24,999 bases of DNA from a virus, in IMG/VR virus record IMGVR_UViG_3300032278_000111, positions 1 to 24,999 of that record; one strand, given 5' to 3'. The notes beneath the pieces were generated by a model, which saw nothing but the letters and a program-made list of their open reading frames with translations, ran no database searches and had not been told where the DNA came from. A program made the position numbers and the translations under genes. Position 1 is the stretch's first letter. Every line of letters starts with the position of its first letter. Below are positions 1 to 23,547 of the stretch, in pieces.

Positions 1-89
1 TTCATCACGCATTTACCTGTATTACCGCAAGCCCATTAAACATAGGAAGTCGATCCATGTCTCCTTAAGCCATTCTTTAACATTCATAA

Positions 90-122
90 CTAAGAACTTT
101 AAAACATTCATCCAAAAAAAAA
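90..122 (-). terminator. Oligo-T terminator with TTAAAGTTCTTAG motif
   Basis: Reading the minus strand after the stop of the 185-aa gene, a run of nine T (122-114) is followed by TTAAAGTTCTTAG (102-90). Oligo-T tracts are typical archaeal intrinsic terminators. The same 13-nt motif recurs five more times in the window. Confidence 0.6.
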
Positions 123-131
123 TAGACGTTA

Positions 132-689
132 CTAAGCTAGCAGTTTGCTTAACTTCTCACGCTTACTTTCGTAGTCATCATACAAAGCATCCCATTCACT
201 TTGACCCTTGTTCTTCACTCCACCGTTAGTCATCTTTGACATTACTGCTGGCAACATCATCTCGATGTTCCCTCCCAGTGAACTTCGGATCCACATTCGT
301 TCAATACTTGGACTGTACCACAGAGACCAACTCTCGTATCCATATCCTGCAAAGCGGATACCAGACTTGCGTTGCTCTTCAGGCGTAGGCTTATAATTGA
401 CGCAAGGAAACATATCATCCTTTAAGTCGTCATCTGTCATTCCTACTGGCCATGTTGTTATTAACGTACTGATGCCAAGATGATAATTCTTGCCATTGTA
501 CTTCATGGTACCGAAGTCGATCAAGTATCTGTTCTGAACGTTTGCTTCGTTTAGGTCGTACATTAAGTCAATGTTAGAACCTTCGCGTATTCGGAAGGTA
601 CTGCCATGCTTAGTTACGAACCTGATGTCTACTCGTCCGTTCTGATTGAAGTCTTGCTGACGTTGCAATTCTTCGTCCTTACTCTTCAT
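132..689 (-). CDS. Hypothetical protein, 185 aa
   Basis: I do not recognise the family. The protein is soluble with no signal peptide or membrane segment. It has a charged N-terminus (MKSKDEELQRQQ), a middle part rich in Tyr, Trp and Gly that looks beta-rich, and a charged C-terminal helix ending in SKREKLSKLLA. The start is supported by a TTTAAC TATA box on the minus strand whose first base is at 719, 30 nt before the ATG, which implies a leaderless mRNA. The stop is followed by a run of nine T on the coding strand and then a conserved TTAAAGTTCTTAG motif. It is therefore a single-gene unit. Its place among small accessory genes suggests an early, host-interaction or regulatory role, but that is inference. 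Confidence 0.75.
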   Translation of the reverse strand: MKSKDEELQRQQDFNQNGRVDIRFVTKHGSTFRIREGSNIDLMYDLNEANVQNRYLIDFGTMKYNGKNYHLGISTLITTWPVGMTDDDLKDDMFPCVNYKPTPEEQRKSGIRFAGYGYESWSLWYSPSIERMWIRSSLGGNIEMMLPAVMSKMTNGGVKNKGQSEWDALYDDYESKREKLSKLLA

Positions 690-893
690 TAATATATATA
701 TCTTTTACAGGTAGTTAAATATTATGTCAGACAGAATCATACACGTTAGGAAATACTACAATAACTAATTTTGCGCAGTATGTATATCTATATGTATGTC
801 TCCACATGAGCGAGAATTAAGGCTTGCCTTCGGAGTATGAAATGTGTTCTATATAATTGTGTAAATAAAAGAGGGATGGGAGTAGGAGTGTTG

Positions 894-955
894 GTTGAGT
901 AGGTAAGGTAGAAGGTTCGACGTTCAGTTTTGGGGAAAACTAGAACCTACTCAAC
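894..955 (-). terminator. Long stem-loop downstream of the 94-aa gene
   Basis: Perfect 11-bp arms GTTGAGTAGGT (894-904) and ACCTACTCAAC (945-955) enclose a second perfect hairpin, AGTTTT-GGGG-AAAACT (926-941). An alternative pairing of AGGTTC with GAACCT overlaps the outer stem. It starts 15 nt after the stop of the minus-strand gene at 970 and is followed on that strand by CTCTTTTATTTA. It probably terminates or stabilises that transcript. It is the only large hairpin in this role in the left region; the other genes use plain oligo-T. Confidence 0.5.
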
Positions 956-969
956 CTGTGTTGACAGTT

Positions 970-1254
970 CTACTGTTTCTTGAATACTATTCGTCCAAAC
1001 TTGCCTTCACCACGTTTTTCCTTAATGACTGTACCTGATAGCAGAGCCTTTGTTCTTGGCGCTGTTAATAAAGGTACGTCTGTCCTTTGCTTCTCTGGCA
1101 ATTCTATACCTTGTTGTACTAAGAATTCGCAGAGTTGCGTTGTAGTGACTATGTCACCTGACTTCATTGCATCAAAGAACGCATCTAAGTGTCCAATGAC
1201 CTCACTGTTGTCTTTCGTAGTTCCGACTTTGTTGACGTACTGACTAATGTCCAT
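970..1254 (-). CDS. Paralog A of a four-member small protein family, 94 aa
   Basis: This is the shortest-headed and most divergent copy of a family found four times between 970 and 4806. It keeps the shared layout: an N-terminal DISQYV segment, a helix with FFDAMKSGD, a second helix LCEFLVQQGIEL, the block TDVPLLTAPRTKAL, and a C-terminal strand-like tail GRIVFKKQ. Size, helices and basic tail fit a small winged-helix-like DNA-binding protein, but this is a guess. The start follows GGAGGTGA by 4 nt. The TATA box (first T at 1301) is 29 nt before another ATG at 1272, so the mRNA probably has an 18-nt leader that itself begins with AUG. It is followed by a long stem-loop (894-955). The function is unknown. 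Confidence 0.75.
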   Translation of the reverse strand: MDISQYVNKVGTTKDNSEVIGHLDAFFDAMKSGDIVTTTQLCEFLVQQGIELPEKQRTDVPLLTAPRTKALLSGTVIKEKRGEGKFGRIVFKKQ

Positions 1255-1301
1255 CTATTCACCTCCTTTCATAATATATAATTCATTACCAGGATAATAA
1301 A
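1254..1301 (-). promoter_or_regulatory. TATA box plus 18-nt leader with AUG at +1 and strong SD
   Basis: The TATA-like TTTATT begins at 1301; the ATG at 1272 lies exactly 29 nt away, where leaderless genes in this window have their start codon. From it reads ATG AAA GGA GGT GAA TAG, a five-codon ORF that contains the GGAGGTGA Shine-Dalgarno and stops directly before the gene's own ATG at 1254. Confidence 0.5.
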
Positions 1302-1324
1302 TATTTTGTCAAACACGATCGTTC

Positions 1325-1351
1325 ACGAAACTACACTCCTATACACTAAGC
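1325..1351 (+). repeat. 27-nt ACG...TAAGC box, copy C
   Basis: Reads ACGAAACTACACTCC then TATACACTAAGC. It matches the copy at 2500-2526 at 22 of 27 positions without gaps. Other copies are at 1858-1883 and, more diverged, 3817-3843, all in the same orientation on the plus strand. Confidence 0.5.
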
Positions 1352-1603
1352 TGTTCGACTTATTAATAACCCTGGGTAGGGAAGTTAGAATCACACTCCT
1401 GGCGTGGGTATGTTAATGTTAGTTAGAATGTTATTAAGTTATGTTAGTAACTAAGTTTCACTTGTACATAAAGAGTATATATGATAACGTGGAGAGTTGT
1501 TAACAAACCCTGACCCACAGGCAAAAAAATCACCCTCCTGCGTATCGCTGTTCCAGAACGCTATTATCGCGTTACATAGTTCTATCCTGTTTCGATATTC
1601 GTC

Positions 1604-1697
1604 TTAGTTAGTTAGTTACTATCATGTGTATCTAAATAGATATATAAGATCTATGCTGATGGCAAGAGTTCGGCCGTATTAGTTCTTAACTAACTAA
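1604..1697. repeat. Inverted repeat TTAGTTAGTTA / TAACTAACTAA
   Basis: Perfect 11-nt arms at 1604-1614 and 1687-1697 with a loop of 72 nt. The left arm belongs to a longer (TTAG)n run to 1618, so the pairing may partly reflect simple repetition. A similar GTTAGTTAGTTAATAACCC occurs near 6863. Confidence 0.35.
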
Positions 1698-1825
1698 CAT
1701 ACGCTACTACCTCTTTAGGGTAATAATGCTCTAACGAAAAAATGCCCATTAACGCACGTGACCATCAACGGTATACTGCTACTAGTGTAACCTCCTGTTT
1801 ACCAATGCCCCTTCGTGAACCCGGA

Positions 1826-1841
1826 GCGCTATAATCGCGCG
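1826..1841. repeat. GCGC palindrome-like motif (GCGCTATAATCGCGCG)
   Basis: One of five related GC-arm/AT-centre motifs in the gaps of the left region (also 1559-1571, 1910-1922, 2614-2628, 3774-3789). This copy is an imperfect palindrome lying 17 nt before a copy of the ACG...TTAGC box. Confidence 0.4.
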
Positions 1842-1857
1842 AGGGACATGTGTTGTC

Positions 1858-1883
1858 ACGAAATACGCTCTATAACGCTTAGC
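1858..1883 (+). repeat. ACG...TTAGC box, copy A
   Basis: Reads ACGAAATACGCTC then TATAACGCTTAGC. It aligns with the boxes at 1325 and 2500 with one or two small gaps and lies in the same orientation. Confidence 0.45.
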
Positions 1884-1933
1884 ACCTTCTCGCTCTAGCG
1901 TCGAACAACGGGATAATCGCGCTACAGTCGTCG

Positions 1934-1942
1934 AAAAAAAAA
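1934..1942 (-). terminator. Oligo-T terminator (9 T)
   Basis: A run of nine A on the plus strand is a T-run on the coding strand, 43 nt past the stop of the 120-aa paralog ending at 1985. Confidence 0.5.
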
Positions 1943-1984
1943 TAGTGTTGCCGTGCGTCGACGGCTTGTGTGGTATCTACGTTT

Positions 1985-2347
1985 TTATTGTTTCTCGTAG
2001 ATCCAGCGTGACATTTTGTTGGCAGTGTTGACTTTGCGTCTTTCGATTGACTTGTCACTGAATGCGTTCGTCTTCGGAACTGCATACAATGGAACGTCTG
2101 TTTTGATGCTGTTGTTGATAGCGATGCCTTGGTCTTCAAGGAATGCTACCAGCGCTGCGTTGTCTACGACTTCACCTGCGTGCATCTGCTGGAAGAAGTT
2201 ATCGAGTGCATCGATGACTTCCTTGCTGACGCTGCCTCCGGTGCCTGAACCGAATGTCTTCGCAGTGTACTTCGTGATGTCTACTGGTTTCTTGAACGTC
2301 GTTGTTTCTTTCGTGTCTTTTTCTGCCTTCGTTTTCTCGTCTTTCAT
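1985..2347 (-). CDS. Paralog B of the four-member family, 120 aa
   Basis: Second family copy, with a longer charged N-terminus (MKDEKTKAEKDTKETTTF). The conserved core follows: DITKYTAKTFG, DALDNFFQQMHAGEV, LVAFLEDQGIAI, then NSIKTDVPLYAVPKT, and the tail SIERRKVNTANKMSRWIYEK. It is about half identical to paralog C at 3911. I chose the ATG at 2347 over an upstream ATG at 2389: the TATA box (TATATA from 2376) lies 29 nt before 2347 and inside the longer reading. Upstream lie four phased CTATATAG palindromes. The family's function is unknown; a small DNA-binding regulator is one possibility. It ends as a single-gene unit with an oligo-T terminator. Confidence 0.8.
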   Translation of the reverse strand: MKDEKTKAEKDTKETTTFKKPVDITKYTAKTFGSGTGGSVSKEVIDALDNFFQQMHAGEVVDNAALVAFLEDQGIAINNSIKTDVPLYAVPKTNAFSDKSIERRKVNTANKMSRWIYEKQ

Positions 2348-2419
2348 TATAATATATTTACTTCGGCAGGTATATAGTTCTTTTGTCACGTTATAGCTTC
2401 GATTAATAATACACGTGCA

Positions 2420-2478
2420 CTATATAGATGCAGGCCAGATCTATATAGATCTATATAGACCACTTCGGATCTATATAG
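2420..2478. promoter_or_regulatory. Cluster of four phased CTATATAG palindromes
   Basis: CTATATAG starts at 2420, 2441, 2451 and 2471, so the spacings are 21, 10 and 20 bp, close to whole helical turns. Three copies are extended to ATCTATATAGA. The cluster lies 44-102 bp beyond the TATA box of the 120-aa paralog. A matching cluster lies upstream of paralog D (4851-4897), and single sites occur at 3829 and 5703. The layout suits cooperative binding of a dimeric regulator to one face of the DNA. Confidence 0.55.
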
Positions 2479-2499
2479 ACACCGGTGCCCAAGTGTGTC

Positions 2500-2526
2500 A
2501 CGGAAATACACTTCTAAACACTTAGC
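2500..2526 (+). repeat. 27-nt ACG...TTAGC box, copy B
   Basis: Reads ACGGAAATACACTTC then TAAACACTTAGC; 22 of 27 bases match copy C at 1325. Orientation is constant along the plus strand although the neighbouring paralog genes point in different directions. Confidence 0.5.
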
Positions 2527-2556
2527 CGCCATCACAGGCGCGGTAGGCAAAACACC

Positions 2557-2589
2557 GGGACAAACGATTCCCCATCCCAAATTTTGCGC
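2557..2589 (+). repeat. 33-nt GGGACAAA...ATTTTGCGC element, copy 1
   Basis: Shares 24 of 33 ungapped positions with 3561-3593, including GGGACAAA at the left end and ATTTTGCGC at the right end. Both copies are followed within about 20 nt by GTTAT and CCATA. The ATTTTGCGC end alone also occurs at 768-776. Confidence 0.45.
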
Positions 2590-2613
2590 AAGGGGGGTTA
2601 TCAACACCATACT

Positions 2614-2628
2614 CGCGATTATCGCGCG
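2614..2628. repeat. GCGC palindrome CGCGATTATCGCGCG
   Basis: CGCGAT-T-ATCGCG is a perfect 13-nt inverted repeat with a one-base centre. Related copies occur at 1559, 1826, 1910 and 3774. Confidence 0.45.
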
Positions 2629-2669
2629 AAAGGGGATGCTATACCCGAAGACGGTCAATCGCATCAGGT

Positions 2670-2678
2670 AAAAAAAAA
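2670..2678 (-). terminator. Oligo-T terminator (9 T)
   Basis: T-run on the coding strand starting 3 nt after the stop of the 71-aa gene at 2681. Confidence 0.6.
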
Positions 2679-2680
2679 GA

Positions 2681-2896
2681 CTAGATTTCCACTCTAGTCT
2701 TCCCTGGCGTATACTTGCTTACATATTCTCTCACATGTGCGCATGCCAGCTTTCTTCCCTCTTCAGATAGACTATTCCACCAATCGAAGAATTCATCATA
2801 GTCACCTGAGTCATTCCCATTCAGGACGTCGTCAACATAGTCTGGGCTAATCCATCTTACCCATATCCTAGTTAACTCCTTCTCTTCTTTCATCAT
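2681..2896 (-). CDS. Hypothetical acidic protein, 71 aa
   Basis: I do not recognise the family. The protein is acidic and aromatic: MMKEEKELTRIWVRWISPDY, then an Asp/Asn/Gly-rich stretch, the helix DEFFDWWNSLSEEGRKLACAH, and a short basic tail. No Cys pair, signal or membrane segment is visible. Small acidic viral proteins of this kind are sometimes inhibitors or DNA mimics, but nothing here proves that. The ATG at 2896 (or the adjacent one at 2893) is preferred over an upstream ATG at 2932 because a TATA-like TATTAATA lies about 29 nt before it. A T-run follows the stop at once, so it is a single-gene unit. Confidence 0.65.
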   Translation of the reverse strand: MMKEEKELTRIWVRWISPDYVDDVLNGNDSGDYDEFFDWWNSLSEEGRKLACAHVREYVSKYTPGKTRVEI

Positions 2897-2938
2897 ATTA
2901 TATATTATATCGACCTCTATATTAATATTCAACCACCA

Positions 2939-2958
2939 CTAAAAACTTTAAAAAAAAA
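2939..2958 (-). terminator. Oligo-T terminator with TTAAAGTTTTTAG motif
   Basis: On the minus strand after the 77-aa gene, a nine-T run (2958-2950) runs directly into the motif TTAAAGTTTTTAG (2951-2939). The motif also lies just upstream of the TATA box of the next minus gene, so termination and upstream-element roles cannot be separated by eye. Confidence 0.55.
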
Positions 2959-2966
2959 GAGAGCGC

Positions 2967-3200
2967 CTACTCGGCAAACTCTCCTAGCTTATAGAGCGAC
3001 CTGGTATACTCACTCCATCCCTCCTTTCCATTTATATCAGTTCTGCATTCGCACTTGCAACATCGTACCAGACATTCGCTGCAATTGCCATCTATAAATG
3101 GCCTTCCACAATAGCACTCAATGGGTTCACTGTCTACACATTCGCAGACAAACTCTCCACCATCATAATGCCTTGGTTCCACGCTTTTCTTTTTTTCCAT
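2967..3200 (-). CDS. Cys-rich zinc-binding-like protein, 77 aa
   Basis: It contains eleven or so cysteines in a compact pattern: CECVD, IECYCGRPF, GNCSECLVRCCKCEC. Such spacing suggests at least two structural zinc sites, as in small zinc-ribbon or treble-clef proteins. A short basic N-terminus (MEKKKSVEPRH) precedes it, and a tail without Cys ends in LYKLGEFAE. A TATA-like TATATA about 29 nt before the ATG (around 3222-3231) supports the start and a leaderless mRNA. The stop is followed by an oligo-T terminator. Possible roles are binding of nucleic acid or of a host protein. The exact family is not recognised, and zinc binding is inferred only from the Cys pattern. Confidence 0.75.
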   Translation of the reverse strand: MEKKKSVEPRHYDGGEFVCECVDSEPIECYCGRPFIDGNCSECLVRCCKCECRTDINGKEGWSEYTRSLYKLGEFAE

Positions 3201-3269
3201 ACTACAATTTATTTGGACACGAATATATATTTTTACCCACCTCTGGGTAGCTGATTAAGTGACGAAATA

Positions 3270-3327
3270 TTTAATATCGTGCTAAAGAATATATATTATG
3301 GGAAGAAGTTTTCAGGAGGTGAAGTGA
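3270..3327 (+). promoter_or_regulatory. TATA box and AUG-starting leader with SD
   Basis: TTTAAT begins at 3270 and an ATG lies 28 nt later at 3298. That ATG opens a nine-codon ORF (MGRSFQEVK) containing GGAGGTGA at 3317-3324 and ending with TGA at 3325-3327, just before the coding frame of the next gene. Confidence 0.45.
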
Positions 3328-3328
3328 A

Positions 3329-3553
3329 CTGGATAGAGTAAGTATAAGTCGTAGTATCTTTGGTGGCAATGAAATGGATGGAACTTGTTGGAGAATAAGT
3401 TTGAAGGGTCCATATGCTATTGAGATAGACGGAGAGCATGCTGATACACATACTGAGAGTGAAGTAGAGTTAATCATAACCGAGGAGGATATGAAGTTAC
3501 TACTTGTTAAGATGTGCATTGAGGCAAACTATGGCGATAAGGGTATGCCCTGA
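3329..3553 (+). CDS. Hypothetical protein with non-ATG start, about 74 aa
   Basis: This reading frame looks protein-like (WRISLKGPYAIEIDGEHADT, then EVELIITEEDMKLLLVKM). A promoter and a GGAGGTGA Shine-Dalgarno sit just in front of it, but it has no ATG, GTG or TTG near them. The CTG at 3329 lies 6 nt after the Shine-Dalgarno and is the best-placed start. The first ATG in frame is at 3374 and would give 59 aa. Alternatively, a one-base loss near 3332-3340 has broken a start such as GTG AAC TGG. The family is unknown; the mix of short strands and helices suggests a small alpha/beta protein. The frame is real with fair confidence, the start is uncertain. Confidence 0.5.
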   Translation: MDRVSISRSIFGGNEMDGTCWRISLKGPYAIEIDGEHADTHTESEVELIITEEDMKLLLVKMCIEANYGDKGMP

Positions 3554-3560
3554 TCAACTC

Positions 3561-3593
3561 GGGACAAATGAAACCCACAACCCTATTTTGCGC
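3561..3593 (+). repeat. 33-nt GGGACAAA...ATTTTGCGC element, copy 2
   Basis: Matches 2557-2589 at 24 of 33 positions, in the same plus-strand orientation, and is followed by GTTATAACCATA. Confidence 0.45.
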
Positions 3594-3611
3594 GGTCGGG
3601 AATGTTATAAC

Positions 3612-3753
3612 CATAAGACACGACGTTCTGGAGGGGGTTATATAGTATATAACCTGGAACAGAAGGTCGTTCGGTGGTAGATGGGTAGCACAGTCATAAG
3701 GCAGGACGTTCGGAGGAGTGTTAAATACTATATAACAAGACACAGAAGGACGT
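3612..3753. repeat. 83-bp direct repeat around GTTATATAGTATATAAC
   Basis: Two units begin with CATAAG at 3612 and 3695. Their first 59 bases match at 45 positions with no gap. Each contains GACGTTC, then a 17-bp AT palindrome (GTTATATAGTATATAAC at 3637-3653, perfect; GTTAAATACTATATAAC at 3720-3736), then ACAGAAGG. The layout resembles tandem operator or iteron sites. Confidence 0.6.
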
Positions 3754-3773
3754 GCTGTTTGTCAAGTCGGAAA

Positions 3774-3789
3774 GCGCGATAGTCGCGCG
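3774..3789. repeat. GCGC palindrome GCGCGATAGTCGCGCG
   Basis: Perfect 6-bp arms GCGCGA/TCGCGC around TAG. It is one of five related motifs in the left region. Confidence 0.45.
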
Positions 3790-3816
3790 TAAGAACAGGG
3801 TGACGTGAACTAGATC

Positions 3817-3843
3817 ACGAGAACGTCCCTATATAGCGTTAGC
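3817..3843 (+). repeat. ACG...TTAGC box, copy D, with CTATATAG
   Basis: A diverged copy, ACGAGAACGTCC then CTATATAGCGTTAGC, 25 nt before the TATA box of the 3911 gene. It combines the box with one CTATATAG palindrome (3829-3836). Confidence 0.4.
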
Positions 3844-3867
3844 CCTGTCGCATGATTCACCACAACA

Positions 3868-3911
3868 TTTATATTACCCTCGATATATATATAAGTATGG
3901 AGGTGAAAATA
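3868..3911 (+). promoter_or_regulatory. TATA box and 14-nt AUG-starting leader with SD
   Basis: TTTATA begins at 3868; an ATG at 3897 lies 29 nt later at the expected transcription start. It reads ATG GAG GTG AAA ATA TGA, includes the GGAGGTGA Shine-Dalgarno, and its TGA overlaps the ATG of the gene at 3911. Confidence 0.55.
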
Positions 3912-4234
3912 TGAAGAAGGTTGAAGGTTCGAAGCCTGCGGACATTAGTAAGTTCGTCAGGCAGTCGATCGGGGATCAATCGGTCAGTGCTACGGTAGTG
4001 GCAGCGGTCGATAGATTCTTCCGAGCGATGACTCCTGGGGAGGTAACCACCAACGCACTCTTGGTCCAGTGGCTAGAGGGCGAAGGGATTGCCATCACCA
4101 ACTCGATCAAGACTGACGTGGCCATGGCCGCAGTTGTCCGAAGTGACGGCTACGCGAAGGGCCAGGGAAGCATTGAGCGAGTCAAGGTGAACCCAGGAAA
4201 CAAGTGGAGCCAGTGGGTCTATCGGAAACGGTAG
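3911..4234 (+). CDS. Paralog C of the four-member family, 107 aa, GC-rich
   Basis: Third family copy and the only one on the plus strand. It shows the full pattern: ADISKFVRQSIG, DRFFRAMTPGEV, LVQWLEGEGIAI, NSIKTDVAMAAV, and SIERVKVNPGNKWSQWVYRK. It is about half identical to paralog B over the core. Its codons are strikingly GC-ending (GTC, ATC, GCC, CAG, AAG), and the flanking 3' sequence to about 4450 is also GC-rich, unlike the rest of the window. The start is set by a strong GGAGGTGA 4 nt upstream. A ten-T run at 4293 probably terminates it. The basic C-terminal tail suggests nucleic-acid contact; the role is unknown. The composition suggests later acquisition from another source. Confidence 0.85.
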   Translation: MKKVEGSKPADISKFVRQSIGDQSVSATVVAAVDRFFRAMTPGEVTTNALLVQWLEGEGIAITNSIKTDVAMAAVVRSDGYAKGQGSIERVKVNPGNKWSQWVYRKR

Positions 4235-4292
4235 GCTCAGGGTCCACCGCCCTCAGAGTCCTCTCGGTTGCAGACGAGGGTGGGCACAAAGA

Positions 4293-4302
4293 TTTTTTTT
4301 TT
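4293..4302 (+). terminator. Oligo-T terminator (10 T)
   Basis: Run of ten T about 58 nt after the stop of paralog C. Confidence 0.55.
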
Positions 4303-4479
4303 GTTCGACCATAACCCCTGGACGGTCTCAGCAGTGGAGGATAGGACAATGCAACACCCGGACACTGAAGGCTGGAGGGATGGGAACAGGGGTGGACCAG
4401 TGGACAGGGGGACTATGGGAATAGGGTGGGAACGGCTCGAGAGGTGCGTGATTGATGTGATTATCGTGATTTCATTAAT

Positions 4480-4497
4480 AAAAAAAATAAAAAAAAA
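4480..4497 (-). terminator. Double oligo-T terminator
   Basis: Two T-runs of nine and eight on the minus strand, separated by one A, about 30 nt after the stop of paralog D. Confidence 0.55.
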
Positions 4498-4527
4498 GAT
4501 TTAGGATTTTCGTTTTTCGGATTTGGT

Positions 4528-4806
4528 TTATCCTTTTACGTATATCCATTTGGCCCATTTGTTATCGGGATTTGCTTTTTCCCTTTTAACGTTTTGGGTT
4601 TTCGATATTTTCTTAACGATTTCCAAAACTATATCGGTTTTGATTTCTGCCGATATTTTCAACCCTTTTTCGTTTTCCAAAAATTCTACTATTTTTTGGT
4701 TTGACGTTTTTTGGCCTTTTTCCATTTCCTGAAAAAATATTTCTATTTCTTTTTGGATTTGAAAGTTTTGGTTTTGGTTTTCGTTTTCCAAATATTTCTT
4801 TTTCAT
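4528..4806 (-). CDS. Paralog D of the four-member family, 92 aa, extremely AT-rich
   Basis: Fourth family copy. The core is recognisable: EIEIFFQEMEKGQ, IVEFLENEKGLKI, AEIKTDIVLEIV, and KREKANPDNKWAKWIYVKG. Its residues are pushed toward Lys, Glu, Asn, Gln and Ile (MKKKYLENENQNQNFQIQKE), and its codons are almost all AAA, GAA, CAA, AAC, ATA and TTT. That is very different from paralog C next door, although the structural signature is the same. The TATA box (TTTATA, first T at 4840) lies 34 nt upstream, and three CTATATAG palindromes (4851-4897) lie just beyond it. It ends with a double oligo-T terminator. The function is unknown. Confidence 0.8.
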   Translation of the reverse strand: MKKKYLENENQNQNFQIQKEIEIFFQEMEKGQKTSNQKIVEFLENEKGLKISAEIKTDIVLEIVKKISKTQNVKREKANPDNKWAKWIYVKG

Positions 4807-4850
4807 TCTTAATTATATATTCATTCTTGCGTGTTATAAATGTATGTATT

Positions 4851-4897
4851 CTATATAGATTCCGAAATCTATATAGTTACTGTTGCTATCTATATAG
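4851..4897. promoter_or_regulatory. Cluster of three CTATATAG palindromes
   Basis: Sites start at 4851, 4869 and 4890 (spacings 18 and 21 bp), directly upstream of the TATA box of paralog D. The arrangement resembles the cluster at 2420-2478 upstream of paralog B, which suggests shared control of the two paralogs. Confidence 0.5.
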
Positions 4898-5062
4898 ATG
4901 CGTATGCACTACTCAGTATATAACATAGGGTGAGTATATATAGTATATATAGTGTCCCCAGGTTAAATACGGGCATCGGGTAATGGTGGAATCCGATTTC
5001 CCTGTGCGCAAACACAGAACGTCGTTCGATGGCGATATAGCTAAGCCGGTTGGGAATCATTC

Positions 5063-5072
5063 AAAAAAAAAA
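5063..5072 (-). terminator. Oligo-T terminator (10 T)
   Basis: Ten T on the coding strand starting 3 nt after the stop of the 69-aa gene. Confidence 0.6.
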
Positions 5073-5074
5073 GA

Positions 5075-5284
5075 CTATTCTGGATAGCCGTAGTTAGTTC
5101 TACGTTTGTGGAGTTGTTGGATCCTTTCTCTCAACTGTTCCATAACTTCCTCACTTGAACTTCTCAGAAGTCTATTCCTCTGATTCTCAATGTAAGGTCT
5201 AGTCAGGTTACTTGAGTATGGTACTCCTGCTATTCTCAGAAGCCTTCTTAAGAACTTCTCCTCTGAACTTATCTCTTCATTCAT
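5075..5284 (-). CDS. Hypothetical basic helical protein, 69 aa
   Basis: The family is not recognised. The sequence is mostly helical and rich in Arg, Glu and Leu: MNEEISSEEKFLRRLLRIAG, a short turn with PYSSNLTRPY, then a long helix with EEVMEQLRERIQQLHKRR. The C-terminal half has the heptad look of a short coiled coil, so the protein may form dimers. The start is supported by a TATATAGT box with its first base at 5313, 29 nt before the ATG. An oligo-T terminator follows the stop. As a free-standing unit among accessory genes it may be a small regulator or anti-host factor; this is only a guess. Confidence 0.7.
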   Translation of the reverse strand: MNEEISSEEKFLRRLLRIAGVPYSSNLTRPYIENQRNRLLRSSSEEVMEQLRERIQQLHKRRTNYGYPE

Positions 5285-5423
5285 ATTCTCTATTAGTGCG
5301 TGCGTACTATATATGTATGTATTGTGCGAGCTAAACCAGGGTGTCCGAACGTCGTGATACTTTTAAGTGCTATAACGGCAGACGGTCCATCATAGGACAA
5401 GGGGACGAGTGTCTTACCCTCTG

Positions 5424-5443
5424 CTAAAAACTTTAAAAAAAAA
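5424..5443 (-). terminator. Oligo-T terminator with TTAAAGTTTTTAG motif
   Basis: A nine-T run (5443-5435) continues directly into TTAAAGTTTTTAG (5436-5424) after the 80-aa gene. The arrangement is the same as at 2939-2958. Confidence 0.6.
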
Positions 5444-5448
5444 GAAAG

Positions 5449-5691
5449 TTATTGCATTGCTTCTTTTCTGATAATGGCTACTATTTTCACTTGCCATTCC
5501 ATTAACAGGTTTTGCAATCTGAAACTGTCTAACATTGCAATGCTATAAAAGTCCATGTAACTTTCGTCGTCATATTCTTCCGGTGTTAGCATTGCCTGTG
5601 CCATCAGGTCAGCCCTTCGTCGGAAGCTGCATTGGTTGTTAAAGAATTCCACTTCCCAAGTGTTTTCTATTTCTTCAGTGTTGTGATTCAT
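5449..5691 (-). CDS. Hypothetical protein, 80 aa
   Basis: The family is not recognised. The protein begins MNHNTEEIENTWEVEFFNN, has a basic patch CSFRRRADLMAQ, an acidic turn TPEEYDDESYMD, and a long C-terminal helix FRLQNLLMEWQVKIVAIIRK. No membrane segment or Cys pair is visible. The ATG at 5691 is chosen over an upstream in-frame ATG at 5766 because the TATA box (TTTATA, first T at 5725) lies between them, 34 nt before 5691. A single CTATATAG palindrome (5703-5710) lies between TATA box and start, a position where a bound protein would block initiation. Confidence 0.65.
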   Translation of the reverse strand: MNHNTEEIENTWEVEFFNNQCSFRRRADLMAQAMLTPEEYDDESYMDFYSIAMLDSFRLQNLLMEWQVKIVAIIRKEAMQ

Positions 5692-5978
5692 TCTTACTAT
5701 ATCTATATAGGTCCCATAATATAAATGTACTTGGAGTATATAAACACGCGTATAGAAACAGTACATTTATAACACCCGAACAATATATATAATTAGAGAA
5801 GGAAGAAGTGAGGATGGTCCTGCTTTCGAAAAACCGGTCGAAGAAGTCGGACGTCCAGAAAATGACCTGATGAATCCTTCTACCGAAATCTAGTACCTAT
5901 ACCCTTGGCGGGTTGGTAGGAACCTGGTACCTATGCTAAATACAAACATTTATAACTGCCTTGTACTATATATATAGT
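5692..5978. other. Divergent promoter gap with a possible short transcript
   Basis: A plus-strand TATA box TTTATAAC begins at 5766 and predicts a transcript from about 5795. After it I see only an 18-codon ATG ORF (5814-5870) and, in another frame, an ATG-less protein-like stretch (EGRSEDGPAFEKPVEEVGRP) that ends at a TAG just after CCGAAATC near 5890. A hairpin TTCGA...TCGAA lies within it. It could be a small RNA, a leader of the 5979 gene, or a decayed gene. Confidence 0.35.
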
Positions 5979-6290
5979 ATGAAGAAGTGGGAAGTAGGTA
6001 CCTGCAAATATTGCAGTTGTACCTTCGATAAGAAGACATGGTGTGAATCGTATGATACTGCTGAAATGCACTATCATGGCTTTTGGAGACGATGTTCACA
6101 TGCTGCATACTGTCTAAAGCATCGCGAAAGAAAATTCGTGAACTTGGTACAACAGCGAATAAGAAAAGCAATGCCACATGAAGCAGAAGTGGAAGTAGTA
6201 CCAGATGTAGCAAGACCAATAATGACGTGGGAAGAAATCATGGCAAGTCCACTGTTTAAGAAAGTGGGTTTCTTTACAAGACCACGTTAG
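5979..6290 (+). CDS. Zinc-finger-like protein, 103 aa
   Basis: The N-terminal half carries Cys and His in zinc-binding spacing: GTCKYCSCTF, then TWCESYD, HYHGFW, RRCSHAAYCLKHRERKF. The C-terminal half is basic and then ends in a Pro-containing segment MTWEEIMASPLFKKVGFF. The start at 5979 is fixed by TTTATA at 5949, 30 nt upstream; an ORF six codons longer would begin inside the promoter region. Eleven T directly follow the stop. A DNA-, RNA- or protein-binding accessory role is likely from the Cys/His pattern, but the family is not recognised. It converges with a 36-aa zinc ribbon gene on the other strand. Confidence 0.75.
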   Translation: MKKWEVGTCKYCSCTFDKKTWCESYDTAEMHYHGFWRRCSHAAYCLKHRERKFVNLVQQRIRKAMPHEAEVEVVPDVARPIMTWEEIMASPLFKKVGFFTRPR

Positions 6291-6301
6291 TTTTTTTTTT
6301 T
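6291..6301 (+). terminator. Oligo-T terminator (11 T)
   Basis: Eleven T directly after the TAG stop of the 103-aa gene. Confidence 0.65.
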
Positions 6302-6382
6302 CGATGATCGAATACAATAACTGTTTAATGGCTATATACCGACCGACGATTCTACAAGGTACCTTGATGGTACGATGGTCCT

Positions 6383-6404
6383 ATGCTACCATAGCATCCT
6401 ATGG
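6383..6404. repeat. Overlapping alternative hairpins
   Basis: ATGCTA-CCA-TAGCAT (6383-6397) and CCATAG-CATC-CTATGG (6389-6404) are both perfect and mutually exclusive. They lie at the 3' end of the minus-strand 36-aa gene and may act in its termination, since no T-run follows it. Confidence 0.35.
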
Positions 6405-6509
6405 TCTGCATTTACCACATGTCACTATCAATTTGTCACCGTTTGGGACAAACAAGGTATCCAAGTCAATTGGACCTTTGCAGATAGAACATGTTAGTTC
6501 CTCTTCCAT
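6399..6509 (-). CDS. Zinc ribbon miniprotein, 36 aa
   Basis: The whole protein is one zinc-ribbon pattern: M-EEELTCSICKGPIDL, a short beta-like linker with FVPNGDKLIVT, then CGKCRP. CxxC...CxxC with about 20 residues between the knuckles is the usual layout of small rubredoxin-like ribbons. Although only 37 codons long, it has a TATA box (TTTATA from 6552), a leader, and a GGAGGTGA Shine-Dalgarno 4 nt before the ATG, which makes it a credible gene. The leader starts with an in-place AUG at 6523. Role unknown; such ribbons often bind nucleic acid or transcription components. Confidence 0.65.
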   Translation of the reverse strand: MEEELTCSICKGPIDLDTLFVPNGDKLIVTCGKCRP

Positions 6510-6552
6510 ATCTTCACCTCCATGTATTATATATCTTTAACTATGTTATAAA
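6509..6552 (-). promoter_or_regulatory. TATA box and 14-nt AUG-starting leader with SD
   Basis: TTTATA starts at 6552; an ATG at 6523 lies 29 nt away. The leader ATGGAGGTGAAGAT is nearly identical to that of paralog C (ATGGAGGTGAAAAT at 3897), with the same 14-nt distance to the true start. Confidence 0.5.
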
Positions 6553-6696
6553 TGTTCTGATCCCTCCAAAGTTGTTAAAGGAAAGGAGAAAGGGCGACAT
6601 AGAGTGGTTTGAAGGGGAAGAAGACTCCACACATGAAAATGAATGAAGAAGGTCCTCCACAGTTCGCGGGAATGAATAAGCGCACCTAAGTTCGCT

Positions 6697-6789
6697 TTAC
6701 GGGCTGTTGAGGATCCACTCTAAAACCAGATCTTTCTCACCTTGTGAGAGTCTGGAAAAGAGCTGTCTCTCCCTTTCTTTCCTTTCCAT
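6697..6789 (-). CDS. Hypothetical miniprotein, 30 aa
   Basis: A 31-codon ORF encoding a charged amphipathic segment (MERKERERQLFSRLSQGEKD then LVLEWILNSP). Its main support is the promoter: TTTATA with first base at 6818, exactly 29 nt before the ATG, as for the leaderless genes nearby. No T-run follows. The shape resembles a single helix-turn-helix-like or leucine-rich helix pair; function unknown. It could be a remnant or a chance ORF behind a real promoter. Confidence 0.4.
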   Translation of the reverse strand: MERKERERQLFSRLSQGEKDLVLEWILNSP

Positions 6790-7318
6790 ATTTTATTATA
6801 TCTAATCGGTAATATAAATTTACTTTTTTATTAAAGTTTTTAGCAAGTATATAACTCAGTGGTTAGTTAGTTAATAACCCTCGAGCACACTATCTGCACA
6901 GATTCTCACCTATAACCCTCGACGAGAACGGTATTTAGTGCTTTAGGTATGGTTATATAGGACTTATCTGGGAAGCACGTACAGTTCGCACTCGGAATAG
7001 GCTGGAGTCCTGGGAAATGACCGGCATTTGACTGGGTACCCTCCAAACTAACCCGGAATCCTGGTCGGAAAGTGGGAATTGCCTGGTCTTTTGCTGGGTA
7101 GAAGGGTGGATCCCAGTGCTTTTCCCTCCTAAAACGGTATAAAACCCTTTATAAAGCGTTATATACGGTTCATTCGGGAGACCTGGAACTAACCTGGAAA
7201 GTGGTAGGAAGGAGGATGGATCCGACCAGTTTAACCCGGACTAGACCGACTATTCCCTCGAAATAGGGTATATAAGCCTTCATAAAGCACTATATACTCC
7301 TCGATAGATATATATAGT
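6790..7318. other. Gene-free 529-bp stretch with degenerate repeats
   Basis: No ORF is convincing. Contents: a plus-strand TTAAAGTTTTTAG motif (6831-6843), GTTAGTTAGTTAATAACCC near 6863, repeated ACCTGGAA-like and GGATCC-containing stretches between 7010 and 7250, and the 131-bp spaced promoter-like repeat (7122-7166, 7253-7297). Confidence 0.45.
7122..7297 (+). repeat. 131-bp spaced duplicate of a promoter-like segment
   Basis: Positions 7122-7166 and 7253-7297 match at 36 of 45 bases without gaps (TTCCCTC, GGTATA, CCTT, ATAAAGC, TATATAC). In the second copy TATATAC serves as the TATA box of the 7319 gene (28 nt to the ATG). In the first copy the same distance leads to no start codon, so it looks like a duplicated, silent or RNA-only promoter. 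Confidence 0.5.
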
Positions 7319-7447
7319 ATGAGGAGAAACAGAAACATAACATGTGAGAGATGTGGAGAAGGGAATCTCAGTTGGGATCAGACTCACCACGCTCGAACTG
7401 GTGTATGGAGATTGGTCTTGCACAAGGGATGTACGAGCCACAGATGA
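7319..7447 (+). CDS. Zinc-binding-like miniprotein, 42 aa
   Basis: The protein reads MRRNRNITCERCGEGNLSWD, then a segment with TGVWRLVLHKGCTSHR. The pattern CxxCG-GNL-W, a short linker, W-RL, and a C-terminal H-x3-C is typical of small phage and viral zinc proteins of 40-60 aa. The TATATA at 7291 is 28 nt before the ATG, which supports a leaderless transcript. It is followed 41 nt downstream by another zinc-type minigene with its own promoter. Zinc binding is inferred; the partner is unknown. Confidence 0.65.
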   Translation: MRRNRNITCERCGEGNLSWDQTHHARTGVWRLVLHKGCTSHR

Positions 7448-7488
7448 GTATCACAACATTTATAACCTGGATATGATATATATAGAAC

Positions 7489-7605
7489 ATGGAGAAGAAG
7501 AGAAGACTCACAAGGTGTTGCAAACGACATGGAAGCACATTGCCACAGTTTGAGGAAGTCTCAACAGACGAGTGCATGTTCTGTCGAGCAGAACAAATGT
7601 TCTAA
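7489..7605 (+). CDS. Cys-rich zinc-binding-like miniprotein, 38 aa
   Basis: The protein reads MEKKRRLTRCCKRHGSTLPQ then FEEVSTDECMFCRAEQMF. A CC-x2-H group and a CxxC about 18 residues later could hold one zinc ion. The basic N-terminus suggests nucleic-acid contact. A textbook TATA box (CATTTATAAC, first T at 7459) lies 30 nt before the ATG, so this 39-codon gene is probably expressed. No clear terminator follows, and it is the last gene before the packaging module. Confidence 0.6.
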   Translation: MEKKRRLTRCCKRHGSTLPQFEEVSTDECMFCRAEQMF

Positions 7606-8092
7606 CCACATTGGGTGAACTCGCACAGATGAGCACGAACTTGTGAACCAAAACAAAAGACACTGTTCAGAACACGAGCTGGGGTGAGAACCATACCTGG
7701 TAAGAAGAAAGCACGTGGTATTTCCAACACGCGCTGTGTTAAAAGAAAAGACCACAGCCTGGGTATGAGTCTGGTCAGAAAAGCTCACCTGAAAACAAAG
7801 ACCCGGGTCAAAGTGTTAAAGACTCACACCTGGTGTGAAGTGGTAAGTGGTATTAACAAGACACAGACCTGGTAAGTTTGAGACCGGGGTAAGACAAAGA
7901 CAAAGACACAGTATGGCAGAGGCAATAGTCTTTAGTGTAATATATTTGATTATATAGATGCGCCAGGCATCTTTCTCCAAATCACACTTTTTCGATTTAT
8001 AAACTATATCACACCCCTGCAAACCAAATCACGATTTTGTTAACTGTTATCCAATATGCTTATATACTACCCTATCACAATATATATTAGAA
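7606..8092. other. Gene-free 487-bp stretch before the terminase genes
   Basis: The plus strand is purine-rich and lacks credible genes. It contains the palindromes GACCCGGGTC (7800-7809) and TCACACCTGGTGTGA (7824-7838, 7-bp arms), two exact ACCTGGTAAG repeats (7695, 7867), short AAGACA iterations near 7892-7910, and a small hairpin GATGC-GCCAG-GCATC around 7968-7982. TTATATAC at 8060 is the likely TATA box of the next gene. Its place next to the small terminase gene makes it a candidate packaging or replication site. Confidence 0.4.
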
Positions 8093-8686
8093 ATGATCAG
8101 GTCAGAAGACTTTGACGAAGATAGTGATGATCCTAGAGAGATAATAGATCCGTCAATGGTAGTTAAAAACTTTAATAAATTAACAAAGAGTTCTTGTAGA
8201 GTTTGTGCTCATAATAATAGGTTTGAATGGGAAGACAAGATTATTAATCATAAAGCAACTCGTAAAGATGCCGCAAAGGATATGGACGTTAGTGAACAAA
8301 TGATGTCTGAGCATATGAGATTTCATTTTGGTAGTCAAGTAATGACTGAAATTAAAGAATCACCAGTAGCTCAAAAGGCTGCAATAAATCTTAAATCTGC
8401 TATAAGTATGCTGAATACTTATCTATCTCAACTTACCCAACGTCAAGATGCAATCTTTATGATGCCAATTGATGCTAAAAGTGAGTTTGCTATTAAAGCT
8501 CATCTTTCAGAAGTAAGAGAGACTTTAAAGATGCTTCTAGAAGTACAGGGTAATCTCTCCCAAGCGCCAAGCGTTAAGGTACACGAAATGAACATTCAGT
8601 ACAACAATCTTAAAGAAACTGTTGTAAGTGATTTGTGTCCTATGTGTAAAGCGAAAATTATCAAAAAACTAGAAGTTGGTAAATGA
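8093..8686 (+). CDS. Probable small terminase subunit, 197 aa
   Basis: It likely recognises viral DNA for packaging. Residues 35-80 show the pattern known from many small-terminase-like proteins: CRVCAHNNRFEWEDKIINH, then a helix-turn-helix-like DAAKDMDVSEQMMSEHMRFH, giving Cys35, Cys38, His53, His74 and His78 as possible zinc ligands. A helical middle (about 90-155) could oligomerise, and a second knuckle CPMC sits at 182-185. A TTATATA box 33 nt upstream supports the start. Its stop overlaps the ATG of TerL (ATGA), the usual terS-terL order. The name rests on the domain pattern and position, not on a search. Confidence 0.7.
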   Translation: MIRSEDFDEDSDDPREIIDPSMVVKNFNKLTKSSCRVCAHNNRFEWEDKIINHKATRKDAAKDMDVSEQMMSEHMRFHFGSQVMTEIKESPVAQKAAINLKSAISMLNTYLSQLTQRQDAIFMMPIDAKSEFAIKAHLSEVRETLKMLLEVQGNLSQAPSVKVHEMNIQYNNLKETVVSDLCPMCKAKIIKKLEVGK

Positions 8687-14314: not shown

Positions 14315-15208
14315 ATGAAAATGGTCGAGAAAGAATTAAATGAGATTTTGTTGGCAACTGCAACAAGCGATATTTCCGTTCGTAAGGAACTCACAAAAGA
14401 AATACTTTATAAAATAAGTAATCTTTTGGCAACTGGTACAAAACTAATTCCTGTTAGGAATTATAATGTATTGGATATCAAGTTCACTTACCCAGACGAA
14501 GGTGTTGCTGCTGAATACCCAGTACCAGAAGGTGCAAACGCAGGAGAGACTGCCGTTGCATGGTCAAACTTTGGCATCACCTTAGAAAAGGCAGAAGCCA
14601 GATTTACTATCACAGATGAATCTGTTCTCAGAGGCATTGCCACTGAACAAAACAGACGTTCATTTATGAGAGCTGCAGAAAGTTTAGCAAAGAAGAAAGA
14701 TGGCAACATCCTATCTAATTTGTATTCAGGTGCAGGCCAGTCACAGACAGTTAGTAACGCATGGGATACCAGTAGTGGTACTCCAGCAGACGATGTAGTT
14801 TCCGCATGGGGACTGTTACTTAAAAATAGTAACATTACTGATGCTGAGATGAAGAAGGTTTGGTTGGTTCTACCAGCTGAGGCATTCGCAATCGTTTCAA
14901 AGCTACAAGAAATCTCAAATATCAATCAAAGATTGAGAGATTGGCTTGAACAGAGCTTTGGTATTAGTCTCGTGGCCACAAGAAGTACTGAGTTGGGCGG
15001 TAATGCTATCATGGTTGTTAACAGTGAAGAAACTGCAACACACGGTATATTAGCTTCGAACAGTATTCCACTTTCTGAGGAAGAACGAATTCCAGGCGTT
15101 GGTGACAGGTTCACTATTAGGCAATACTTTAATACTAAAGTAGTTCCAGAGTCTAGCTCTGTAGCTACTACAAAGCGTATTGTCAAATTAGATACCGTAG
15201 TCACATAA
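14315..15208 (+). CDS. Major capsid protein (HK97 fold), 297 aa
   Basis: The shell subunit. Length, position after protease and decoration genes, and features of the HK97 fold support this: an N-terminal helical arm, KLIPVRNYNVLDIKFTYPDE leading into an E-loop-like region with EYPVPEGANAGET, a spine-helix region MRAAESLAKKKDGNILS, an A-domain with AWGLLLKNSN and KVWLVLPAEA, and a C-terminal beta part ERIPGVGDRFTIRQYFNTKV. ATG 14315 follows an AGGTG-like ribosome site; a second ATG lies two codons later. A hairpin and T/C-rich tract follow the gene. Confidence 0.88.
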   Translation: MKMVEKELNEILLATATSDISVRKELTKEILYKISNLLATGTKLIPVRNYNVLDIKFTYPDEGVAAEYPVPEGANAGETAVAWSNFGITLEKAEARFTITDESVLRGIATEQNRRSFMRAAESLAKKKDGNILSNLYSGAGQSQTVSNAWDTSSGTPADDVVSAWGLLLKNSNITDAEMKKVWLVLPAEAFAIVSKLQEISNINQRLRDWLEQSFGISLVATRSTELGGNAIMVVNSEETATHGILASNSIPLSEEERIPGVGDRFTIRQYFNTKVVPESSSVATTKRIVKLDTVVT

Positions 15209-15217
15209 CCATAGAAT

Positions 15218-15259
15218 GAGTTTTAACTCTTTTCCCCCTTTTATTTTTAAAGTTTTTAG
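15218..15259 (+). terminator. Hairpin, T/C tract and TTAAAGTTTTTAG motif
   Basis: GAGTT-TT-AACTC (15218-15229) is followed by TTTTCCCCCTTTTATTTT and then the conserved motif TTAAAGTTTTTAG (15247-15259). It ends the head operon after the major capsid gene. Confidence 0.6.
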
Positions 15260-23381: not shown

Positions 23382-23547
23382 GCTATCACAGAGCACATTT
23401 AGGCTTCATAGCGTGCCAGATAGAAGGGAACACAAAGTAGTAAGATGTTTACTAGATAAGCAAGCGGTTGGAAATCCGAAGGGTCAATCCCTAGAAATAA
23501 GCCCTAGAAAATCTCTTATTATTCCCGAATTTTATTAAAGTTCTTAG
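23381..23547 (+). ncRNA. Candidate structured RNA of about 165 nt
   Basis: Between an orphan TATA box (23352) and the terminator-like motif TTAAAGTTCTTAG (23535-23547) lie several perfect short stems: GCTAT/ATAGC (23382, 23408), TAGTAA-GATGT-TTACTA (23438-23454), AGGG-TCAAT-CCCT (23480-23492), and AATAAG/CTTATT (23496, 23515). No ORF longer than a few codons is present, and the segment is less AT-rich than other gaps. It is not a tRNA by eye. The role is unknown; it could equally be an attachment or regulatory site. Confidence 0.35.

Follow-up and report, generated by a model that had tools for sequence, protein, structure and literature searches.

Small winged-helix proteins encoded by viruses are known as a kind, a close described case being the virus SSV1, whose genome carries several of them: F93, F112 and B115 are winged-helix proteins and putative transcription regulators (PMC9608457). 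The four genes considered here, named A to D, lie on a virus contig of 24,999 bases that is probably a fragment and was analysed at its full length (the window). Like the SSV1 proteins, which have about 90-115 amino acids, their products are small, virus-encoded, of predicted winged-helix fold and present several times in one genome. However, SSV1 is a spindle-shaped crenarchaeal virus to which no sequence relation was found, whereas A-D come from a tailed virus and are related among themselves as paralogs; the A-D family together with its candidate circuit is new. We consider it probable that A-D are virus-specific single-domain winged-helix DNA-binding transcription regulators of an archaeal HK97-type virus and that B and/or D act on a shared operator; SSV1 sets the precedent for several such regulators in one archaeal virus. 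If true, this reading accounts for four otherwise unannotated genes and provides a compact circuit of gene regulation that can be tested, in a group, the tailed viruses of uncultivated archaea, for which, to our knowledge, few regulators with a known site have been described.

The genome in the window is that of an HK97-type tailed virus. Its packaging and virion module occupies the plus strand from 8.1 kb on. TerL matches PHROG 17415 (E 3e-13) and shares about 27% identity with terminases of Streptomyces phages; the portal matches Pfam PF04860 (E 6e-9, just under the cut-off), and the product of 14315-15208 is a likely capsid protein (Pfam PF25209, over the cut-off). Further members are a tail protein and a tape measure protein, with E-values of 6e-33 to PHROG 290 and 1e-17 to PHROG 167, respectively. 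The first 8 kb hold small genes that are separately placed on both strands, A-D among them; no Rfam match was found in positions 1-8100 and no tRNA in the window. Several Cys-rich ORFs of very small size that resemble zinc ribbons also lie in this part, at 2967-3200(-), 5979-6290(+), 6399-6509(-), 7319-7447(+) and 7489-7600(+), most of them with a TATA-like box of their own; two of them were scanned and gave no meaningful family match.

All four genes are present as the earlier note had placed them, each running from ATG to stop. Paralog A (970-1254, minus strand) encodes 94 amino acids, has the most diverged wing (GEGKFG) and is preceded by the Shine-Dalgarno sequence GGAGGTGA and an AT box at -47. 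The 120-residue B (1985-2347, minus strand) has the longest N-terminal extension, lacks a Shine-Dalgarno sequence and is flanked by a TATA-like box at -29 and a T-run 43 nt past its stop. Paralog C (3911-4234, plus strand; 107 amino acids) is again led by GGAGGTGA, with a TATA-like box at -43 and a T-run 59 nt past the stop, and D (4528-4806, minus strand; 92 amino acids) is AT-rich and without a Shine-Dalgarno sequence, its TATA-like box lying at -34 and its T-run 31 nt past the stop. That A-D are real paralogs, as had been proposed, is borne out both by profiles built from three members and searched against the fourth (E-values in the window of 5e-26 for C, 6e-31 for B, 3e-16 for D and 3e-14 for A) and by Smith-Waterman scores that range from 8.4 (A-D) to 39.6 (B-C) standard deviations over shuffled sequences, with none of 500 shuffles reaching the score of any pair. 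Pairwise identities in MAFFT alignments are 51% for B-C, 37% for A-B, 36% for B-D, 34% for C-D, 29% for A-C and 22% for A-D. The same leave-one-out profiles revealed no significant fifth copy in the other frames of this 25-kb record, and the neighbouring ORFs o132, o2681, o2967, o5075, o5449 and o5979 fall outside the family (Smith-Waterman against shuffles, best z 3.8). The shared motif layout holds much as first noted, including the absence from A of the N-x-NK...W-Y part, in place of which it has GKFGRIVFKK; the exception is B, which reads NKM and not NKW.

AlphaFold2 models of two paralogs, C and A, each built from the four-sequence alignment, predict the winged-helix order H1-S1-H2-H3-S2-wing-S3 at middling confidence. 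The model of C (pLDDT 74.0, pTM 0.64) has helices at 27-39, 48-57 and 64-77 and strands at 45-47, 86-92 and 100-106, and that of A (pLDDT 74.9, pTM 0.65) has the same order of elements. In both, helix 1 carries FFxxM and is followed by a short strand, helix 2 corresponds to LxxxLxxxGI, helix 3 lies at or adjoins the I-K-T-D block, and a wing of two predicted strands contains the N..NK..W[IV]YxK motif. Helix 3 and the wing together make up a half of the protein that is strongly basic in every paralog (predicted isoelectric points of 9.9-10.4). According to the earlier note, a winged helix or another DNA-binding fold whose surface is basic would speak for a regulator, and the models of C and A together with these isoelectric points give just this picture.

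Comparison of the models with solved structures by VIA-align returned mostly winged-helix proteins, matched across the whole domain. For C the top matches are Zur (3mwm, Z 7.4, 2.8 Å over 70 residues), PerR (2rgv, 7.2), an M. mazei regulator (3r0a, 7.0) and a viral Zalpha domain (1sfu, 7.0); for A they are a chain of an RNA polymerase III complex (8ity_P, Z 9.0, 3.0 Å over 91 residues), Zur (8.6), FurB (8.2), PadR (8.2) and Zalpha (8.0). Z-scores of 7-9 are not family-specific and lie too close together to pick a family inside the fold; Foldseek gave no match with an E-value below 0.001. The DNA-binding domain of the Fur/Zur/PerR regulators (3mwm, 2o03, 2rgv) is among the closest neighbours of A-D across the whole domain, but A-D lack the metal-binding His/Cys set of these proteins (each has 0-1 Cys and 0-1 His) and end past the wing, without the C-terminal dimerisation domain. 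Similarly, PadR/LmrR proteins are neighbours of A (Rv3488, Z 8.2), whereas their C-terminal dimerisation helix is missing from A-D, which in the models end at the second wing strand. The Zalpha domains of ADAR1 (1qbj) and of the viral E3L type (1sfu) score between 7.0 and 8.0. Zalpha has a wing Trp together with an Asn/Tyr recognition pair in helix 3; B, C and D, unlike A, have a Trp near the second wing strand, and on inspection of the alignments by eye the pair does not appear to be conserved in A-D, the Tyr occurring in B only.

At the level of sequence, A-D are so far an orphan family, most scans being able to see close relatives only. No match to Pfam, PHROGs or NCBIfam was obtained at the curated cut-offs or at E 0.001 (best E-values 0.063, 0.013 and 0.053, respectively), in agreement with the earlier failure to recognise a known family. 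The hits of BrxC_BrxD to C (E 0.063) and of the restriction enzyme PspGI, the best sequence match in the PDB (E 0.022), were judged to be due to chance, and that of PHROG 9852 to D (E 0.013), which covers 46 residues of a Lys/Glu-rich stretch, to composition. Among viral contigs, searches with C, the queries A1 and A2, TerL and MCP, which see only close or motif-sharing relatives so that absence is weak evidence, yielded no true relative, and neither did DNA patterns for the NKWxxWIYxK motif, a TerL motif and the promoter. Nothing was found in genome contigs with query A2, nor by tblastn in phages with C and in plasmids with B. Finally, profile A3 gave nothing at E <= 0.001 in about 1,580 archaeal genomes, scanned without a positive control genome and with one fragment at E 0.086 ignored; these comprised a mixed set of 50, the Nitrososphaeria, the phyla of an ANME-2 MAG and of Methanosphaera, one Asgard phylum, one Thermoplasmata phylum, and the class of a Bathyarchaeota MAG, the centres of the sets coming from genome contigs scanned with an archaeal TBP motif.

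The promoters and T-run terminators point to an archaeal host, which we regard as likely. In 14 upstream regions compared with respect to Shine-Dalgarno positions, with boxes assigned partly by eye since A/T repeats give several equal scores, genes without a Shine-Dalgarno sequence have an AT box (TTTATAA, TATATAC or similar) 28-34 nt ahead of the ATG, and in the three genes with GGAGGTGA, namely A, C and an ORF that starts at 6509 on the minus strand, the box lies 43-47 nt ahead, a shift of about the length of a leader that fits the archaeal reading. Most of these regions contain a second A/T element about 20 nt past the AT box. Archaeal promoters combine a TATA element near -27 with an A/T element near -10 (PMC5316973), and the box distances in leaderless and Shine-Dalgarno-led genes match this anatomy with its leaderless and leadered messages. 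A sigma-70 arrangement, TTTATA-16/18-TATAAT, also scores (33 sites against 19.7 expected), but is outweighed by the near-fixed distance between box and ATG. Runs of at least eight T residues in positions 1-8100 all lie on the coding strand (10 of 10), past the stops of 9 of 11 genes; most have no adjacent hairpin, which resembles the hairpin-free intrinsic termination of archaea (PMC7289017). The host may still be a bacterium, as a small hairpin immediately precedes about one in three of the T-runs. The only match of the terminase in archaeal genomes comes from the class of the Bathyarchaeota MAG (E 9e-39, 28%) and is accompanied by no further shared gene; 200 Nitrososphaeria genomes contained none. 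The matching TerL is encoded on contig G832:C3 (L160, 3631-5178), probably a virus or provirus, near DNA polymerase B-like and portal-like ORFs.

Upstream of two of the paralogs we find clusters of one palindrome that are candidate operators. With up to one mismatch TCTATATAGA has 11 matches in the window where 2.0 would be expected, a count not reached in any of 100 shuffles, and 7 of the 11 fall in these clusters, though promoter sequence may explain part of the enrichment, since the palindrome is rich in A and T and lies close to promoters. The cluster of B (2419-2479), about 43-103 bp upstream of its TATA-like box, has TCTATATAGA at 2440, 2450 and 2470 and ACTATATAGA at 2419, spaced by 21, 10 and 20; the cluster of D (4850-4898) lies directly upstream of its TATA-like box, with TCTATATAGA at 4850 and 4889 and TCTATATAGT at 4868. 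A related site, TATATAGATGC at 7951-7961 on the plus strand, stands about 130 bp ahead of the gene that opens the packaging and virion block and has exact copies in the B cluster (2421) and the D cluster (4891), which makes three exact copies; with up to one mismatch there are 5 against 0.73 expected (0 of 100 shuffles). The upstream regions of A and C contain no operator cluster of the TCTATATAGA kind, and the GTTAGTTA repeats ahead of A are not above chance. The basic wing half and the clusters upstream of B and D bear indirectly on sequence-specific DNA binding. In the proposed mode of binding, helix 3, with its near-constant T-D-V/I at the start, would insert into the major groove of the DNA and the two strands of the basic wing would touch flanking DNA. 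Most likely B and/or D would occupy the TCTATATAGA clusters ahead of their own promoters, resulting in auto- and cross-regulation, and perhaps also the site ahead of the terminase and virion operon, by which the early region would be linked to a switch to late expression. We infer DNA binding by A-D, the pairing of proteins with sites and the choice between repression and activation; the sites lie upstream of the TATA-like boxes, a position that would suit activation or cooperative loading more than simple occlusion. The predicted fold supports the DNA-binding regulators of the earlier suggestion, but the different targets and the arms race with the host that it also raised would be conjecture: the B and D clusters carry the same palindrome, helix 3 begins alike with I-K-T-D in B, C and D, and the searches yielded no sister virus for a comparison of copy number or of sites under selection.

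But could proteins of this fold not serve another purpose? In some proteins the winged helix contacts RNA polymerase or another protein in place of DNA, and this argues against the regulator reading to the extent that the best VIA-align matches of A are the winged helices of an RNA polymerase III subunit (8ity_P and 8iue_P, Z 9.0 and 8.9). A-D might accordingly have the transcription machinery or some other protein of the host as their target, for take-over or counter-defence, with the copies reflecting diversification against host variants. Archaeal virus-encoded regulators that bind RNA polymerase are known, for example ORF145/RIP (PMC7289017), and A-D are small, early-type and separately expressed genes. 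Yet the matches to Zur, FurB and PadR lie within 1 Z of those to RNA polymerase III, and the basic C-terminal half in all four proteins and the palindromes ahead of two of the genes do not favour a host-factor target, which we therefore hold to be unlikely.

The palindromes themselves might instead be iterons of a replication origin or a partition site, for which winged-helix proteins would be initiators or partition adaptors. They are repeats at near-helical spacing in AT-rich non-coding DNA, the sign of the GC skew switches near 3 kb, and winged helices are found in plasmid initiators of the RepA/RepE/Pi kind. Nevertheless, there are two clusters, each upstream of the promoter of a paralog and one of them adjoining the TATA-like box, with a third site ahead of the terminase operon; 92-120 amino acids are short for an initiator, and GC skew also tracks gene strand, all of which leaves an origin or partition site very unlikely. 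Least probable, and hardly to be expected, is that A-D are minor virion or genome-condensing proteins whose likeness to regulators reflects nothing but a common winged-helix arrangement: they are small, basic and without a known family, but they lie outside the virion block (8.1-25 kb), in transcription units of their own and in both orientations, and their GC3 of 0.35-0.69 contrasts with 0.20-0.32 in virion genes.

Returning to A-D as regulators, codon usage bears on the origin of the copies. GC3 is 0.41 in A, 0.59 in B, 0.69 in C and 0.35 in D, and 42-60% of the residues that are identical between paralogs are encoded by different codons, as fits old protein-coding copies. The synonymous codon choice of D is unlike that of A, B and C (z 5.5-6.2, 0 of 300 permutations), as is apparent from Lys AAA/AAG (16/2 in D, 1/8 in C) and Glu GAA/GAG (12/0 in D). 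This difference suggests that D arrived by an acquisition of its own and did not arise in place as a copy of a neighbour; only a weak contrast is seen for A, B and C. In D (4528-4806) nearly all codons of the kinds concerned are AAA, GAA, CAA and AAC, unlike in its neighbours and as if imported. It is conceivable, though doubtful, that A-D form a four-protein winged-helix network, with copies from separate sources, as the different codon usage would indicate, at least two of them sharing an operator at which they compete or cooperate, and with sites that also govern the virion operon.

Several other repeats occur in the window. A GC-rich palindrome similar to CGCGATWATCGCG is found in non-coding DNA at 1559-1571, 1827-1839, 1909-1921, 2614-2626 and 3775-3787, two of the five shortly past T-run terminators; with up to three mismatches CGCGATWATCGCG has 7 matches against 2.0 expected. 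The pair CGACGTTC/GAACGTCG is present at 918, 3621, 5017 and 5347, all non-coding and in the first 8 kb (4 copies against 0.08 expected). Upstream of C, positions 3619-3754 form an imperfect inverted repeat with 35-nt arms (74%) and TATATAGTATATAAC-like palindromes. A TTTAAAGTTTTTAG-like sequence, finally, recurs at 2939-2960, 5424-5445, 6822-6843, 15240-15259 and 23528-23547, in several cases downstream of a gene and adjoining a T-run, and may be part of a terminator.
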